DNA of 23,880 bases from IMG/VR virus record IMGVR_UViG_3300025098_000290, positions 1 to 23,880 of that record, one strand, 5' to 3'. A program made the position numbers and the translations under genes. The notes below the pieces were generated by a model that worked only from the letters and a program-made list of their open reading frames with translations, did not search any database and was not told the DNA's origin. This document shows, in pieces, positions 1 to 18,665 of the stretch (position 1 is its first letter; each line of letters begins with the position of its first letter). This DNA is from a virus.

Positions 1-9
1 GGGATATAT

Positions 10-70
10 GGTACATCTAGTACCTATGAAGGGTACTACTAGTGCCATAGTATGGTACTACTAGTGCCAT
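10..70. repeat. Three tandem 22-bp iteron-like repeats
   Basis: The 17-mer GGTACTACTAGTGCCAT occurs exactly at 32-48 and 54-70. A diverged copy (GGTACATCTAGTACCTA) starts at 10, so the period is 22 bp. Each unit is an imperfect palindrome around CTAG, with GGTAC- and -GTRCC ends. About two helical turns of spacing places all units on one face of the helix. This is typical of multi-site operators or replication iterons. No gene is visible around it in 1-195. The function (repressor or initiator binding) is inference. Confidence 0.7.
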
Positions 71-80
71 TAAATGAGAA

Positions 81-181
81 GATTGTGCAACCAGGCATGG
101 AGAAATTGCCCCTCTTAGGGGGGTAGTTCCGGGGCAATTCTCATCATTAATTAAGGAGAGTAGAATCCCGATTGCACAATC
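81..181. repeat. Nested inverted repeat, possible structured RNA or cruciform
   Basis: The outer arms are a perfect 10-bp inverted repeat, GATTGTGCAA (81-90) with TTGCACAATC (172-181). Inside, GAGAAATTGCCCC (100-112) pairs with GGGGCAATTCTC (131-142) with a single bulged base, around an 18-nt loop containing CCCCT and AGGGG. No U-tract follows on either strand, so it is not a standard intrinsic terminator. It lies just downstream of the last gene of the leftward operon, between that gene and the iteron-like repeats. It could be an RNA 3'-end structure, a small RNA or a replication/packaging site. Confidence 0.6.
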
Positions 182-195
182 AAAGTTTAACATTA

Positions 196-366
196 TTACT
201 TATGATTCCCGAAGGCTAATTGATGAATAATATTCTCAATGGATTTAAGGTTCCGCTTATCTTCCATCGTTGGCTTGGCCTTGTTGATGATTGGTTTACC
301 ATGTTCCGCCAAGGCGTTGATGATTAGCTGAACTTCTTTATCACTTGCTTGAATTTTTACTAGCAT
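196..366 (-). CDS. Hypothetical 56-aa protein, last gene of the early operon
   Basis: Reading leftward from the ATG at 366 gives 56 residues beginning MLVKIQASDKEVQLIINALA and ending in TAA at 196. It is mostly predicted helix, with alternating hydrophobic and charged residues, and has no cysteines or recognised motif. A ribosome site, AAGGAAAAT, lies about 8 nt upstream. The start falls inside the end of the GKGDKPRP gene (26-nt overlap), consistent with translational coupling. I do not recognise the family. The reading frame is supported by position in the chain and by the ribosome site rather than by homology. Confidence 0.6.
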   Translation of the reverse strand: MLVKIQASDKEVQLIINALAEHGKPIINKAKPTMEDKRNLKSIENIIHQLAFGNHK

Positions 367-469
367 TTTTATTTTCCTTTTTCTTTTTTTTGTTAAATAT
401 TCGATCCCAGTTATCTCGATATTCTTGCGAGTAAGTTCCAGGTCTTGGCTTATCTCCCTTACCTGCCAT
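341..469 (-). CDS. Small conserved GKGDKPRP phage protein
   Basis: This 42-aa product starts MAGKGDKPRPGTY, followed by YRDNWDRIF and a lysine/asparagine-rich tail. The GKGDKPRP...WDRIF combination is a recurrent signature of very small proteins in many tailed phages, often near replication genes. Its function is not established as far as I know. It is basic and could bind nucleic acid or protein, but that is inference. The ATG at 469 overlaps the end of the zinc-ribbon gene by 11 nt, and its 3' end overlaps the next gene by 26 nt. The homopolymeric lysine codons near the end (poly-A on the coding strand) also provide the purine-rich leader of the next gene. Confidence 0.8.
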   Translation of the reverse strand: MAGKGDKPRPGTYSQEYRDNWDRIFNKKKKKENKNASKNSSK

Positions 470-629
470 GACTTAAACCCTGGTTATCATCTTTGGGTGG
501 ATAGGCATTGGCCACCGCACCGCATTCATTACACTCAAAGGTAATCTTGAGATTAAAACAGTCGTTGTAATAACTGATATCTGTTTCTTTCACTACAACC
601 ATATTGGCATTGCAATTAAAACATTTCAT
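459..629 (-). CDS. Small zinc-ribbon protein
   Basis: The product is 56 aa. It has a CxxC knuckle at C3-C6 (MKCFNC) and a second at C33-C36 (CNEC), about 26 residues apart, the classic layout of a two-knuckle zinc ribbon; a further Cys is at 24. Zinc ribbons of this size usually bind nucleic acid or protein. The ATG at 629 overlaps the stop of the preceding 19-aa ORF as ATGA, and GGAAG lies about 6 nt upstream. The specific role is unknown. The ribbon assignment rests on cysteine spacing only. Confidence 0.75.
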   Translation of the reverse strand: MKCFNCNANMVVVKETDISYYNDCFNLKITFECNECGAVANAYPPKDDNQGLSHGR

Positions 630-685
630 TTTGTACTTCCTGGTAATTGTTCTTTATCAAACCATCCACATGGGTAATTAATCAT
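626..685 (-). CDS. 19-aa mini-ORF with strong ribosome site
   Basis: An ATG at 685 opens a 19-residue frame (MINYPCGWFDKEQLPGSTK) that ends in TGA overlapping the ATG of the zinc-ribbon gene as ATGA. A strong Shine-Dalgarno, AGAGAGG, lies about 7 nt upstream. Its own ATG overlaps the stop of the upstream 42-aa ORF, again as ATGA. It may be a genuine micropeptide, or a coupling leader that carries ribosomes between genes. No family is recognisable at this length. Confidence 0.45.
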   Translation of the reverse strand: MINYPCGWFDKEQLPGSTK

Positions 686-810
686 ATTTTCCTCTCTTTT
701 TTAAAAAACCGAGGCTCTGAGAGGCCCGTGGTGAGCTTTTCTTTGCCTGGTCCATGGTTTACCCTTAACGAAGTTATCACGTTTCCGGGCATTTTTAATT
801 CCTTACTCAT
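682..810 (-). CDS. Hypothetical 42-aa basic protein
   Basis: I start it at the ATG at 810, immediately after the helicase stop (TAA at 812-814), because longer in-frame starts run back into the helicase gene. The product begins MSKELKMPGNVITSLRVNHG and ends FFKKERKI, with many Lys/Arg residues. The stop TGA (682-684) overlaps the next ATG as ATGA. No clear Shine-Dalgarno is present, so expression probably relies on coupling to the helicase gene. I do not recognise the family. Confidence 0.5.
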   Translation of the reverse strand: MSKELKMPGNVITSLRVNHGPGKEKLTTGLSEPRFFKKERKI

Positions 811-811
811 A

Positions 812-2647
812 TTAAAAATCAAAGTTAATGTTTTGTTTTTCATAGACTTCCAGGACTGCCTCACGCCTAATCAATGTCATGGCATTGGTATCCATCTCGC
901 TAGAGTTAGCCTTGACCACCTGAAAATTTACAACTCTGGTTCTATCAAATTCTAATCCCTCATCAGCACAAATATTTTCCGCAGTCTTTTCATCTGCCAA
1001 AGAAATTGTGGCAGCCATCCTCATTCCGTCCACGATAGCGGCGGAGCCTCTTATCGAACTTCTGCTATCCCAACTTGATTCTTGGGCCTGGAGTCCGGCT
1101 TTACTCATATGATGAATAGATAAAACGGAACACTCAAACTTAGATGCAATGGAAGAACAGAACTGACAATACAATTGAGCAGCTTCCTGGCTTGTTGTGA
1201 TGGGTGCTGCAACAAAAGATTGTATTGGATCTATGACCACCAAAGATAAATCTGGAATCGTTGAGATCTCATTGATTAACTCATGGGCCTCGGGTGTTAG
1301 ATCTAATCCCCTGGCATCATCTTTTAATAATATTAATGGTTTAGGGGCATCCGGAACTGTATAGGCAAAAACGTCATACTCCGCATCAAATCTTTTATCG
1401 CCTTTATCTAACGCTTTGGTCCGTCTAAAGACTTCGCTTCTATCATCCTCGGCCATCAGCATGAGGACATTACCAGCATTTTTAATTGGTTTATTTAACC
1501 AGGTGCCTTGCCCTTGTGATACTTTGATTGCTAGATCCAGGGCCAACATACTTTTACCAACACCACCGACCGCCGCCAATAGACCAGGTTTAGATTTTTC
1601 TAACAATCCTTCAACCAACCAGGAACGAGGCGGTGGATCACCTTTTAATTGTTTAATTGAGAAACTTCTAATGCCTAGACCTTGATCGCTTATCTCTAAC
1701 TTAACTGCATCCAGGCCTTGCTTGATAGCCAAGTCATTGAAATCACCCTCAATGGATGGGATTCTAACCAAACAATTATAATATCTGGTGGCTATCTCTT
1801 CCGCTTTCTTGCGACCAATATCAGTTTTATCATTATCAAAGGCTAAATAGATCCTGGCGTCCGTCTTTTTTCGTATGTTTTCTACCGCATCATTACCAAA
1901 GTTAGCAGAAAAAACACAAGCTACGGGTATTTGTGTTGCATCCCATACGCTTACACCTGTAGCCATGCCCTCAACAACAACCAAGGATTGAACCTTATCC
2001 AAAGAATTAAAATCAGTACCAATCAAAAAGATATTACCCTTTACTTGTCCGGCAGATACGAACCTTTTAGATCCATCTTCCTGGATAAATTGCAGAGATC
2101 TAATCTCACCATCTACATTGTAGATAGGCACGACCAAAGATTTATTGTGCAGTTTTAAAGAATAACTTTTGATTTGTTTAGCTTCCAGGTAAGGATGCTT
2201 GATAACTTCTGAGTAAGTTTGAAAACGATTCTGACAATCTTTGGCGACTTCCTCATATCTTTGTAGCTTTTGTTTCTTGGCCTCTTCCTGGGCCTGTTGC
2301 ATCTTTAGCTGTAGATCTTGTCTTTCATTTGGAGTAAGTGTATTGATCTGGACAGAACTCCATTTGTATTCCGACCCCGTTCTCCAATTTCCGTAAGTTG
2401 CGAATATGTGATTATGAACAACATTAATGACATACCAACCCGATTTTTCATTACCTTTATCCGGCCTCACTCCCGGAGTTGCTTGTACTGGGATCCTTAC
2501 TAGATCCCCACTTGTATTTAAGAAGCCAACATTTAATCCTATTGTCTGCATTTCTGCAATAAGATCAGCTTCATTGCCTCTATTTTTTTCTAAATAACTC
2601 TTATCTTTATTCAGTCCGTGTCTTATCTTGTATTTTGTAAGATCCAT
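812..2647 (-). CDS. TOPRIM-RecA-like primase/helicase
   Basis: This 611-aa protein probably primes and/or unwinds DNA during phage replication. Residues about 220-275 form a TOPRIM domain, with the glutamate in VVVEGMATG (E226) and the DxD in AFDND (D271/D273). Residues about 340-540 form a RecA/RepA-like AAA_25-type ATPase, with Walker A AAVGGVGKS (358-366), Walker B LVVIDP (D473) and a downstream SIHH motif (511-514). The first ~150 residues contain no zinc-finger cysteines, unlike bacterial or T7 primases. The start overlaps the end of the upstream zinc-binding gene by 41 nt. Neighbouring SSB-like, Sak4-like and RecB-like genes support a replisome/recombination role. It could act as a helicase alone; primase activity is inferred from TOPRIM. 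Confidence 0.88.
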   Translation of the reverse strand: MDLTKYKIRHGLNKDKSYLEKNRGNEADLIAEMQTIGLNVGFLNTSGDLVRIPVQATPGVRPDKGNEKSGWYVINVVHNHIFATYGNWRTGSEYKWSSVQINTLTPNERQDLQLKMQQAQEEAKKQKLQRYEEVAKDCQNRFQTYSEVIKHPYLEAKQIKSYSLKLHNKSLVVPIYNVDGEIRSLQFIQEDGSKRFVSAGQVKGNIFLIGTDFNSLDKVQSLVVVEGMATGVSVWDATQIPVACVFSANFGNDAVENIRKKTDARIYLAFDNDKTDIGRKKAEEIATRYYNCLVRIPSIEGDFNDLAIKQGLDAVKLEISDQGLGIRSFSIKQLKGDPPPRSWLVEGLLEKSKPGLLAAVGGVGKSMLALDLAIKVSQGQGTWLNKPIKNAGNVLMLMAEDDRSEVFRRTKALDKGDKRFDAEYDVFAYTVPDAPKPLILLKDDARGLDLTPEAHELINEISTIPDLSLVVIDPIQSFVAAPITTSQEAAQLYCQFCSSIASKFECSVLSIHHMSKAGLQAQESSWDSRSSIRGSAAIVDGMRMAATISLADEKTAENICADEGLEFDRTRVVNFQVVKANSSEMDTNAMTLIRREAVLEVYEKQNINFDF

Positions 2648-14929: not shown

Positions 14930-16408
14930 TTATTCTCCTAGTTGTGATTTAAGTGTTTCAACTTCTGCTGAAAGTTCTTGTATAGCTTTTACCATCATAG
15001 GCATTAAGTTGCTTGGTGCTACTTGTTGAATATCATCAATTCTTTCAGCCCAAAGATTATTACCATTTGCCACTTCAGAGTGAGCATCAATAGTAGCTTT
15101 CATTTCTTGAGCTACAAAACCATGATAGGTTTTACCTGCCACTCCATTTACAGGGTCAGTGCTATCTGCATCGTAATAATGTTTAAAGTCTTTTGATATT
15201 GCATTTTTAGCCTTCCAAGTATAAGTCACTGGGCGTAAATCATTTATAAAACTAAGACCTGCTGTAGAGGTTAAAATGTTTTCTTTAAGACGTTCATCTG
15301 AATGAGCCGCCCAAGAGGTGTCACTACCATCAATGTTTATTGTTGCACCATTACCACTAAGACCCACTGTAGCTGTATTATTTCCCTGCCCTAAAGCATA
15401 ACGACCTATAACAATCTGACCGACACCAGCAGCAGAACTTGTTCTTGCATAAGCACCTATAACAGTATTGTCAGTTCCTGTTGTTATTTGATTTTGATAG
15501 CCACCTGCATAATATCCAACAGCCGTATTGTCATTCCCTGTGCTAACACTTGCTAAACATCGGCTGCCAATTGCTGTATTTGTATACCCAGTTGAAGCTG
15601 ACCCAAGAGCAGCATAACCTAAAGTTGTATTGTCATTTCCTGTCGTTACATAAGACCCTGAAAAAGTACCAATAATTGAATTTCTAGTTCCTGTAGTGTT
15701 TCTTGTTCCTGATAAATAACCCATTGCTATGTTGTAACTTGCTGTGGTATTGGCATCAAGAGAACCATAACCAATGGCCGTGTTGTAATTTCCTGTAGTA
15801 TTTGCATACATTGCATTAGACCCTATCCCTACATTAGCAGCACCAGTTGTATTCAATATCATCGCATAACGACCAATTGACACATTATCACCGCCTGTTG
15901 TAGAAGCATCTAAGGCTGCATATCCTATCGCAACATTGTGACCACCAGTGGTACAACTTCTACCAGCAGAAGAACCAAGAGCAGTATTTTGTGTACCTGT
16001 CGTGTTTGCTGATAAAGCATTATAACCAACGGCTGCGTTGTTAGAAGCTGTGGTGTTTGCGTTCAAAGAATTGTAACCAACTCCTGTATTTTGTAAGCCT
16101 GTTGTATTTAATAGTAAAGTTCCGTAGCCTATCGCTACATTATTATAACCAGTAGAGTTTGAGTTCAAAGTTCCATAACCTAGAGCAGTATTCTTTGAGC
16201 CAGTAGTATTTGAACTTAAAGCAAACGTGCCAAAAGCAGAATTGCTATCTCCTGTAGTTAACGCTGCAAAGACATCTACACCAACCCCAGTATTGTAGTT
16301 AGCTGCATCAATCGTGCCTGTGGTTGTATCTCCAATCATTATGGAAGATGTGCCAAAAGTTTTTACACTTAGCTCTAGTAATTCGTTAGGTATCTTTGTA
16401 TTTGCCAT
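14930..16408 (-). CDS. S74 spike with YadA-head-like repeats (492 aa)
   Basis: After a short N-terminus (MANTKIPNELLELS) comes KTFGTSS, then about 17 tandem 17-residue repeats of the NT(A/G)(I/V/L)GYxALxANTTGxx type from residue 39 to about 330. These are like the left-handed beta-roll of trimeric YadA heads. The C-terminal chaperone has SDERLK (S370, K375), NDLRPVTYTWK and HGFVAQE and ends in a coiled coil. It lacks the [10 protein letters not shown] anchor present in the 338- and 751-aa fibres. It could therefore need another attachment partner or represent a truncated duplicate that remains open. Intact frame and chaperone suggest it is functional. Confidence 0.85.
   Translation of the reverse strand: MANTKIPNELLELSVKTFGTSSIMIGDTTTGTIDAANYNTGVGVDVFAALTTGDSNSAFGTFALSSNTTGSKNTALGYGTLNSNSTGYNNVAIGYGTLLLNTTGLQNTGVGYNSLNANTTASNNAAVGYNALSANTTGTQNTALGSSAGRSCTTGGHNVAIGYAALDASTTGGDNVSIGRYAMILNTTGAANVGIGSNAMYANTTGNYNTAIGYGSLDANTTASYNIAMGYLSGTRNTTGTRNSIIGTFSGSYVTTGNDNTTLGYAALGSASTGYTNTAIGSRCLASVSTGNDNTAVGYYAGGYQNQITTGTDNTVIGAYARTSSAAGVGQIVIGRYALGQGNNTATVGLSGNGATINIDGSDTSWAAHSDERLKENILTSTAGLSFINDLRPVTYTWKAKNAISKDFKHYYDADSTDPVNGVAGKTYHGFVAQEMKATIDAHSEVANGNNLWAERIDDIQQVAPSNLMPMMVKAIQELSAEVETLKSQLGE
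15419..16294 (-). repeat. 51-bp degenerate tandem repeats, 492-aa spike
   Basis: About 17 units of 17 codons each encode NxxxGxxxLxxNTTGxx. Unit 16 is longer by 3 residues. The asparagine and glycine positions are most conserved. Nucleotide similarity is enough to permit recombination between units and with the neighbouring gene. Confidence 0.85.
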
Positions 16409-16409
16409 T

Positions 16410-18665
16410 CTATCCCTCTAGTGTTTCTATTCTTGCTTTTGCAGCATCTAATTCTGTTTTAAGTTCTTGTATAGCTTTTACAAGCATTGGTAGCAATGCT
16501 GTTGGTGCAGCAGTGTAAATTCCATCGTCAGTTTCTTTATATATTTGGTGTCCTAAATCGCCTAAGTCTGAATAGTTTGCTACAGTGGCTTCCAATTCTT
16601 GTGCAATAAAACCATGCATATCTATACCATCACCAGTATCTTGAACCCTGTCCTCTGAATCAGCTTCATGTATATTGGGAAACAAGGTTGAATCTACATC
16701 CTTTTTCTTTTTCCAATTGAATTTGACTGGTCTTAAATCATTTATAAAATCTAAACCCACTGGCTCATCTACAATGTTGGTTTTAAGTCTTTCGTCTGAA
16801 GTAGAACCCCAAGTTGTTGAACCCATAGAAACATAAGTTCTACTAGAGCTTGAACCAAAAGTTGCATAACCTTGACCAACCCCTAAAACATTTCTGCCAA
16901 TAACAACCTCACTATTAGTGCTTGTATTTGCAGGACTAGAATATGCACCCACGATAGTATGATAATTTCCTGTGGTTATATATCTTGCACCAATTCCTAT
17001 TTCAACATTTTCTGAGCCTGTGGTTATATTTTTACCTGCATCTGCTCCTACAGCAGTATTACCTGTACCTGTGGTATTTGCTGCCAAACAATCTGCTCCA
17101 ACACCTGTATTATTATTAGCTGTCGTATTAGCTATCAATGCTCCATACCCTATCGCAGTGTTACTAGCACCCGTGGTACTTGCATACAAAGCACTTCTTC
17201 CAACTGCTACATTATTTACAGCACTGGTATTATTAGCTAAAGAATTAGAGCCTATTCCAACATTATCTGAGCCTGTAGTATTAGAGCCAATTGCATTTAC
17301 ACCTATGGCTACATTTTCAGCTCCTGTTGAATTAGCATCTAAAGCATTTGAGCCAACTGCTGTGTTATAGGATGCTGTGGTGTTGGCATACAGTGCTGCA
17401 TAACCTAAAGCTGTATTGTAATTACCTGTTGTGTTGGTGTCTAAAGCTTCATTACCTATTGCAGTATTTATTGCACCTGTGGTATTTGCTGTAAGTGAAT
17501 TGTAACCAACTGCTGTATTTGTATGACCTGTAGTGTTTGCTGTTAAAGTACTAAAACCAATCGCAGTATTATTATCACCACTTGTTAAAGCATTAAAAAC
17601 ACCAACACCTAAACCTGTGTTGTAATTAGCTGCATTAATTGTGCCTGTGTCTGAGTCGCCAACTAATAAAGATGAAGTGCCAAAGGTTTTGCAATCTGAT
17701 AGTCCATTAAGACTTGTAGCACCGCTGCTTATTGTTGAAAAACTTAAAGTGCCTGCACCATTGGTAGTTAATGCCTGCCCATCAGTACCATCGCTTACAT
17801 TAAGCTGAGTGATGCCAACTGAATTATCTGATGGAGTTCCAATTGAAACAGCTTTGGCATGATAAACAGTAATAACTCTGCCATTTGCAGGAGCGGTTGA
17901 GAAAGTTAAAGTTGTACCAGAAACGCTGTAAGAGTCTTGAGCTTGGAATACACCATCAATGAAAACCATAAGATCGTTTTCATTACCAACGCTTGATGTG
18001 ACTGTAAAGGTTGTATCAGAACCATCGCCAGCAAAAATATCTGTGGTGAATGATCCACCACCACCGCCAATAGCACCCCACTCATTGGTGTAGCCTTCAA
18101 ACTCACCAGTGGTTGTATTGTATCTGAACATACCTGCAGCTGGACTTCCATTTCTTTGAGCAGTTGTACCACTAGAAATCTTAATTGAGTCAGTGCCACT
18201 TAAAGTCATATTGGCAAAAGTAGGTGAATCAGAAGTAGCTACAGCTTGACCTATAGAGACTTGACCACTGCTAACTGTAACGCCAGTACCACCAGTTATT
18301 AGGCCCTGTACTTCTGCATCAGTTCTTTCAGTAAATGAGAATACACCAGTGCTTGAGTTGTAAGCTAAATTACCAGATGCACTAACAGCAGATCTTGCTC
18401 TAGTGTCTGTGTAATAGAGGTTAGACCCCTCTGTTATAGAACTTGTACTAACTCCGCTTAAAGTACCAGTAACATTTAATGTTCCAGCTACCGCTAAAGT
18501 TTTTCCAGATCCTACATTTAAACCTATGCTTGAGCCTGTGCCATCTGATTTAAAAATTGCATCAAGAGTATCAAGGTCTGCATTGAGGGAAATACCCCAA
18601 GTATCTTCTGCTTCACCTGGCTCTGGTTTAGTTAAATTTAGATTAGTTGTGTATGTATCTGCCAT
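16410..18665 (-). CDS. Main S74 tail fibre with anchor and YadA-like repeats (751 aa)
   Basis: Residues 1-50 match the anchor of the 338-aa fibre. Residues about 55-315 are fibre shaft, including a GDGSDTTFTVTSSV...VFIDGVFQ beta domain near 213-270. From residue 326 the sequence parallels the start of the 492-aa spike (KTFGTSS, NYNTGxGVxVF), followed by about 14 YadA-like 17-residue repeats to ~590. The chaperone carries SDERLK (S623, K628), NDLRPVKFNWK and HGFIAQE. Self-cleavage before S623 would release about 129 residues. It is the first and longest of the three fibre genes and the best candidate for the principal receptor-binding protein. Confidence 0.88.
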   Translation of the reverse strand: MADTYTTNLNLTKPEPGEAEDTWGISLNADLDTLDAIFKSDGTGSSIGLNVGSGKTLAVAGTLNVTGTLSGVSTSSITEGSNLYYTDTRARSAVSASGNLAYNSSTGVFSFTERTDAEVQGLITGGTGVTVSSGQVSIGQAVATSDSPTFANMTLSGTDSIKISSGTTAQRNGSPAAGMFRYNTTTGEFEGYTNEWGAIGGGGGSFTTDIFAGDGSDTTFTVTSSVGNENDLMVFIDGVFQAQDSYSVSGTTLTFSTAPANGRVITVYHAKAVSIGTPSDNSVGITQLNVSDGTDGQALTTNGAGTLSFSTISSGATSLNGLSDCKTFGTSSLLVGDSDTGTINAANYNTGLGVGVFNALTSGDNNTAIGFSTLTANTTGHTNTAVGYNSLTANTTGAINTAIGNEALDTNTTGNYNTALGYAALYANTTASYNTAVGSNALDANSTGAENVAIGVNAIGSNTTGSDNVGIGSNSLANNTSAVNNVAVGRSALYASTTGASNTAIGYGALIANTTANNNTGVGADCLAANTTGTGNTAVGADAGKNITTGSENVEIGIGARYITTGNYHTIVGAYSSPANTSTNSEVVIGRNVLGVGQGYATFGSSSSRTYVSMGSTTWGSTSDERLKTNIVDEPVGLDFINDLRPVKFNWKKKKDVDSTLFPNIHEADSEDRVQDTGDGIDMHGFIAQELEATVANYSDLGDLGHQIYKETDDGIYTAAPTALLPMLVKAIQELKTELDAAKARIETLEG
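16896..17621 (-). repeat. 51-bp degenerate tandem repeats, 751-aa fibre
   Basis: About 14 units with a 17-codon period (one unit of 16) encode the NTAxGxxALxANTTGxx pattern. They are paralogous to the repeats of the next gene, so both in-gene and between-gene recombination are possible. Confidence 0.85.

Follow-up and report, generated by a model that had tools for sequence, protein, structure and literature searches.

The locus analysed here raises a simple question: how many of five tiny, overlapping open reading frames (ORFs) that follow a phage helicase gene are in fact genes? The window, that is, the whole 23,880-nt IMG/VR virus record, comes from a tailed phage for which a family search identified an SU10-type capsid protein; this protein shares 52% identity with its counterpart in Microcystis phage MJing1 and 43% with the one in Pelagibacter phage HTVC106P. 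An initial annotation had listed five ORFs of 42, 19, 56, 42 and 56 codons after the helicase; all five are present, on the minus strand, which that annotation did not give, and we read them on this strand as frames a to e (Table 1). We consider it fairly probable that the locus is a modular cassette downstream of the primase-helicase, in which the microgenes b to e stand behind an 84-nt element, the latter having been misread as a fifth gene of the series.

Two other regions of the window deserve mention. The non-coding end past gene e (1-190) contains repeats of the unit GGTACTACTAGTGCCAT, together with the inverted pair GATTGTGCAA/TTGCACAATC and a GC-rich hairpin, and is possibly an origin or operator region. 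At 14930-18665, two long proteins with similar C-terminal domains abound in NTA(I/L)G-type repeats and are probably virion surface proteins.

Table 1. Features of the cassette and its surroundings in the window
Feature	Position	Strand	Evidence
Primase-helicase (Toprim_3 + AAA_25), upstream of the cassette	812..2647	-	Pfam and PHROGs matches
ORF a, 42 aa, open frame above the element, gene status not supported	810..682	-	dN/dS, stops, no SD-like site
Conserved 84-nt nucleotide element with an interrupted hairpin and T6 (708-703) at its end	703..786	-	38 gap-free versions
Best-conserved block of the element, TAACTTCGTTAA	765..776	-	present in 37/38 versions, partly by construction because the motif served to find many of the versions
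SD-like GAGAGG ahead of b	691..696	-	sequence
Gene b, 19-aa microprotein MINYPCGWFDKEQLPGSTK	685..626	-	distinct versions, dN/dS, independent scan
SD-like AGGAAG ahead of c	636..641	-	sequence
Gene c, 56-aa four-cysteine predicted zinc ribbon	629..459	-	invariant Cys, model, fold, dN/dS
Weak SD-like CAGGG ahead of d	478..482	-	sequence
Gene d, 42-aa GKGDKPRP protein with lysine-rich tail	469..341	-	conserved blocks, codon-position ratio
SD-like AAGGAA ahead of e, within d	374..379	-	sequence
Gene e, 56-aa predicted helical hairpin	366..196	-	dN/dS, model, adjacency to d

Codon-level constraint in the five frames

Scanning IMG/VR with c yielded 45 relatives, and more were obtained through scans with b, GKGDKPRP and the element. 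Codon-level dN/dS, a check proposed together with the initial annotation, was computed frame by frame on distinct versions (a, 10; b, 110; c, 38; d, 50; e, 23). For b, differences at codon positions 1, 2 and 3 amount to.144,.121 and.464, with a dN/dS of 0.06; the corresponding dN/dS is 0.13 for c and 0.105 for e. Variation at the third codon position exceeds that at the other two 3.5-, 2.2-, 2.0- and 4.2-fold in b, c, d and e, respectively, and this excess stands in for a dN/dS figure in the case of d because its synonymous sites are near saturation. By this codon comparison, the four frames b to e are real protein-coding genes under codon-level constraint, and they recur in relatives.

Frame a behaves otherwise. 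Within its clade, its differences are spread evenly over the three codon positions (.051/.032/.042; ratio 1.0) and its dN/dS is 0.62; the frame is interrupted by a stop codon in 29 of the 44 distinct versions, an outcome named beforehand as telling against the five frames and encountered for a but not for b to e. Shine-Dalgarno (SD)-like sites, counted over versions as an SD-like 4-mer ahead of the start codon, point the same way: they precede b in 99/113, c in 45/49, e in 57/62 and d in 84/162 versions, and a in 0/10. That all five ORFs are genes, a encoding a 42-aa protein whose codons lie above a terminator-like sequence, thus seems to us very unlikely, even though a opens with an ATG at the helicase stop (TAATATG) in the window clade and an ATG with an open frame is likewise found in L368 and in L208/L345; translation of a may still occur in any of these. 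The sequence comparison does not support ORF a as a gene, and the idea of five genes holds for b to e only. Frame a is an example of an open frame that mimics a gene above a conserved nucleotide element.

Overlaps and translational coupling

The overlaps reported for the window (a/b, 4 nt at 682-685; b/c, 4 nt at 626-629; c/d, 11 nt at 459-469; d/e, 26 nt at 341-366) were confirmed, and the last three junctions recur in relatives. Among distinct pairs, b and c meet at -4 nt in 18/19, c and d meet at -11, -8 or -4 nt in 31/31, and d and e overlap in 46/46, by 23-50 nt. Neighbouring genes that are translationally coupled are most commonly spaced at -4 nt (NTGA junctions), and they couple most efficiently at spacings of -4 to +3 nt (review PMC12548453). 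Translational coupling across the cassette junctions is plausible in light of this arrangement.

The 84-nt element under frame a

The conserved part of a belongs to a nucleotide element which aligns as nucleotides rather than codons and is also found in phages without such an ORF. Thirty-eight distinct versions align over 84 nt without a gap, and about 44 distinct versions are known in all. The codon-position analysis of frame a detected no codon periodicity in the element, and upstream ORFs enter it in other frames, ending in ...PNTPKT in the L056 group and in ...KKRDNFVNTKP in L331. A promoter upstream of the element (TTGGCA...TATAGAT, L056 group) was considered and dropped, as this stretch lies within the 3' end of the upstream ORF (...KFWQELYLKAIDPNTPKT).

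The terminal T-run is usually preceded by a hairpin, of about -10 to -14 kcal/mol in many of the versions that stand at operon ends; many of these also have an additional GC hairpin and a T-rich stretch downstream of the element. The hairpin of the window, with its interrupted stem, is weaker than those at operon ends (-7.1 kcal/mol), and a consensus scan for intrinsic terminators, applying its own rules, called none in the window. Covariation, evaluated under three pairing schemes that are each plausible, does not clearly rise above controls. Searches of Rfam returned no match at E up to 5 for window positions 1-1000 and, for eight relatives, only an unrelated Trp_leader match (E 0.74); cultured phages gave chance-level matches only, and plasmids none. 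As far as the alignments indicate, this is a conserved nucleotide element that is not in the reference libraries searched. Of note, L158 (10823-10906) and L087 (near 7568) carry a divergent variant whose GCTTGGTC/GACCAAGC hairpin is strong; it occupies the integrase-side position that the standard element has in L333.

Each of 30 records examined holds a single copy of the element (30/30). In the window clade it follows the helicase; in other phages the preceding gene, named by reading its sequence, is DUF3310-like, a member of a small family 'm' or, in L347, a structural-region gene. Because of its position, its orientation and its T-run, we infer that the element works as RNA. A tentative proposal, less likely than not, is that it represents a new class of phage small RNA (sRNA), self-terminated from 3' untranslated regions (3'UTRs), kept at one copy per genome across marine phages and often accompanied by a minimal host-takeover peptide, namely b, whose core of about 15 residues would act on a conserved host target. 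Among the 53 stretches matched by the element pattern alone, 34 sit on b-carrying records, though these records are not mutually independent.

A single copy at gene 3' ends, with very different neighbours on either side, is also what one might see at a phage attachment or recombination site that is not an RNA and that serves integrases or the exchange of modules, as a joint between them. Six element records have a PF00589 integrase, and in every one its domain ends at a distance of about 140 nt, in convergent orientation; convergence at a terminator would, however, place an integrase there in any case, and most element records have no detected integrase, including two of 48-50 kb, although records may be incomplete. 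Given moreover that the fixed-length conservation takes in the hairpin and the T-run, in a fixed orientation, we regard such a site as unlikely.

In the window clade and in L208/L345, the T-run directly precedes the SD site of the next gene, and region 39-43 can adopt two mutually exclusive pairings, as would suit a riboswitch-like attenuator through which a ligand or protein, once sensed, would govern read-through into b to e. Yet many copies stand at an operon end facing a convergent gene, with nothing downstream to regulate, and covariation is weak, so that we hold an attenuator to be distinctly improbable.

Microprotein b

The core of b reads M[IV][NS]YxxGWFDxEQLP, and the protein is mostly 16-28 aa long with a variable tail. 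A DNA pattern for MINYPCGW matches 116 stretches, and the degenerate codons of the core vary synonymously. Since the first b scans had fixed YPCGW, an independent scan was made for WFDxEQLP, which is preceded by YPCG in 182 of 208 places in the loci examined; most of the remaining places read MINYPGG, MISYLWG, MISYPWG, MINYLWG or MINYPSG. The cysteine is therefore dispensable, being replaced by G, S or W, and a redox or metal role for it was rejected on this ground. A clamp-binding motif was likewise dropped, the positions past QLP not being conserved. Searches of Pfam, NCBIfam and PHROGs found no match to b; the one match in INPHARED was at chance level, and GTDB contigs gave a single chance match within a large protein. 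To judge from these searches, b is a microprotein family absent from the databases searched.

We found b in at least 157 distinct contexts, next to genes that their sequences suggest to be helicase, HNH-like, DUF3310-like, methyltransferase-like, exonuclease VII small subunit-like or integrase-like. This variety argues against a leader peptide for one particular gene. More generally, b could be imagined as a leader peptide on which ribosome stalling controls the next gene, no functional protein being made; it is very short, its W, D and P are conserved, and it joins the next ORF at -4 nt in 45 of 90 contexts. The downstream gene, however, varies widely among phages, and the core is followed by tails of very different length, up to fused forms of 40-54 aa, which leaves this explanation with hardly any probability in our view. 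In L125, as in 10 further contexts, the gene directly downstream of b resembles the exonuclease VII small subunit, and in L064 and L111 the b core runs on into proteins of 51-54 aa that share their second half (..DLDGKD.W.KRSEYQQ..).

The GKGDKPRP protein and its partners

The initial annotation described the GKGDKPRP protein as widespread in phages, and its motif indeed matches at least 120 IMG/VR stretches with varied neighbourhoods. Two blocks of d, GKGD.PR and NW..IF, are conserved. The protein has no match in Pfam, NCBIfam or PHROGs, and a literature search for GKGDKPRP found nothing. Its neighbour e is modelled as a helical hairpin (pLDDT 84.2); apart from one weak, partial PHROG match (phrog_25875, E 1.8e-4), e has none in Pfam, NCBIfam or PHROGs, and a search of viral structure space returned only generic helical hairpins. 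Functional homologs of b, d or e were not found.

Gene e follows d in 50 distinct chains and precedes it in 3 more, and c is adjacent to and upstream of d in 35 distinct chains, chains without c being common. Judged by these adjacencies, it is the hairpin protein e that steadily accompanies GKGDKPRP here, and the zinc ribbon c is an optional member of the cassette. The suggested link between GKGDKPRP and small zinc ribbons is seen in other phages, where it takes the form of gene fusions. Of 106 proteins in an independent GKGDKPRP sample, 12 contain a CxxC motif, and the cysteine fusions of GKGDKPRP comprise about six unlike cysteine modules by count. Stand-alone zinc ribbons occur nearby in 9/106 cases against 3.4% at control positions, a weak enrichment because several of them come from one family. 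In a second phage group (L036-L045), most members have a longer GKG protein (MTKWHGGKGSGKRKNDDQ..NWEKIF..) shortly before a c homolog, and this adjacency supports the link between GKGDKPRP and zinc ribbons. GKGDKPRP also opens larger proteins in L234 (297 aa, phosphoesterase-like by eye) and L228 (148 aa). A comparison of the GKGDKPRP/zinc fusions with the RNA polymerase beta' N-terminus gave E-values of 0.2-0.34 only, which we took as chance.

The four cysteines of c (C3, C6, C33 and C36) are invariant and make up two CxxC motifs, the first of them near the N-terminus. The structural model is a three-strand beta zinc ribbon (pLDDT 85.5) whose nearest fold is that of the NrdR zinc ribbon, with a TM-score of about 0.6 over the zinc ribbon part alone. 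On the strength of this model, c is a zinc ribbon with two CxxC knuckles and three strands. Sequence comparison of c with the zinc ribbons of NrdR and of the RNA polymerase I-II type gave E-values above 0.08, with no family over its cut-off. An identity as a Lar restriction-alleviation protein was rejected (PF14354, 15.1 bits against a cut-off of 28.6), and no solved protein was a convincing relative by sequence. In L016, L018 and L019, a single cassette carries a pair of zinc-ribbon paralogs (MKCWHC... and MKCFNC...).

Discussion

Our current working hypothesis is that the element acts in the transcript, so that part of the helicase transcript would end at its T-run; termination there might leave a small RNA from the 3' untranslated region. 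Since the putative terminator looks weak in the window clade, the remaining transcript would read through into b to e, which would be translated from one message with the help of the start/stop overlaps and of their own SD sites. The weakest step of this scheme is the last, in which the products would, early in infection, bind nucleic acid or proteins of the host or of replication: b as a short linear-motif peptide, c as a zinc ribbon, d as a basic GKGDKPRP peptide and e as a helical hairpin. The core pair would be d and e, and c would be an optional adaptor. That b and d may be peptides binding host or replication proteins is suggested by their small size, strong constraint and position. Members of the cassette are gained and lost modularly in chains around the helicase.

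Two conserved phage parts that are easily missed emerge from this locus, one because it is tiny (b) and the other because it is non-coding (the element). Furthermore, GKGDKPRP gains a defined neighbour, e, together with independent cysteine-cluster fusions, which makes its function approachable.

Intrinsic (Rho-independent) terminators consist of a GC-rich hairpin with a T-run directly behind it, and some 3'UTRs yield small RNAs. Most versions of the element resemble both, since they place a hairpin and then a T-run where a gene or operon ends on its 3' side. Unlike intrinsic terminators, the element also keeps about 50 nt before the hairpin, at a fixed length and in unrelated contexts; it further differs from terminators and from 3'UTR-derived sRNAs in belonging to no Rfam family and in its weak covariation. 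The cassette genes are short, lie on the same strand as their neighbours and, in the case of b and c, mostly meet at the -4 nt spacing typical of NTGA-coupled genes, whereas the d/e overlap extends beyond the range of best coupling (PMC12548453). The predicted protein c shares a three-strand ribbon and two CxxC motifs with the zinc ribbons of NrdR and of the RNA polymerase I-II type; it differs from NrdR in being only 56 aa long and in having no ATP-cone domain, and the fold alone is common. At the level of the whole locus, a close parallel is with the host-takeover gene clusters of phages, which adjoin replication genes and are made of tiny, modular and mostly unannotated ORFs. Any host effects of b to e are hypothetical and their families are undescribed in the libraries searched; the cassette resembles these clusters in its tiny, modular ORFs beside a replication gene.
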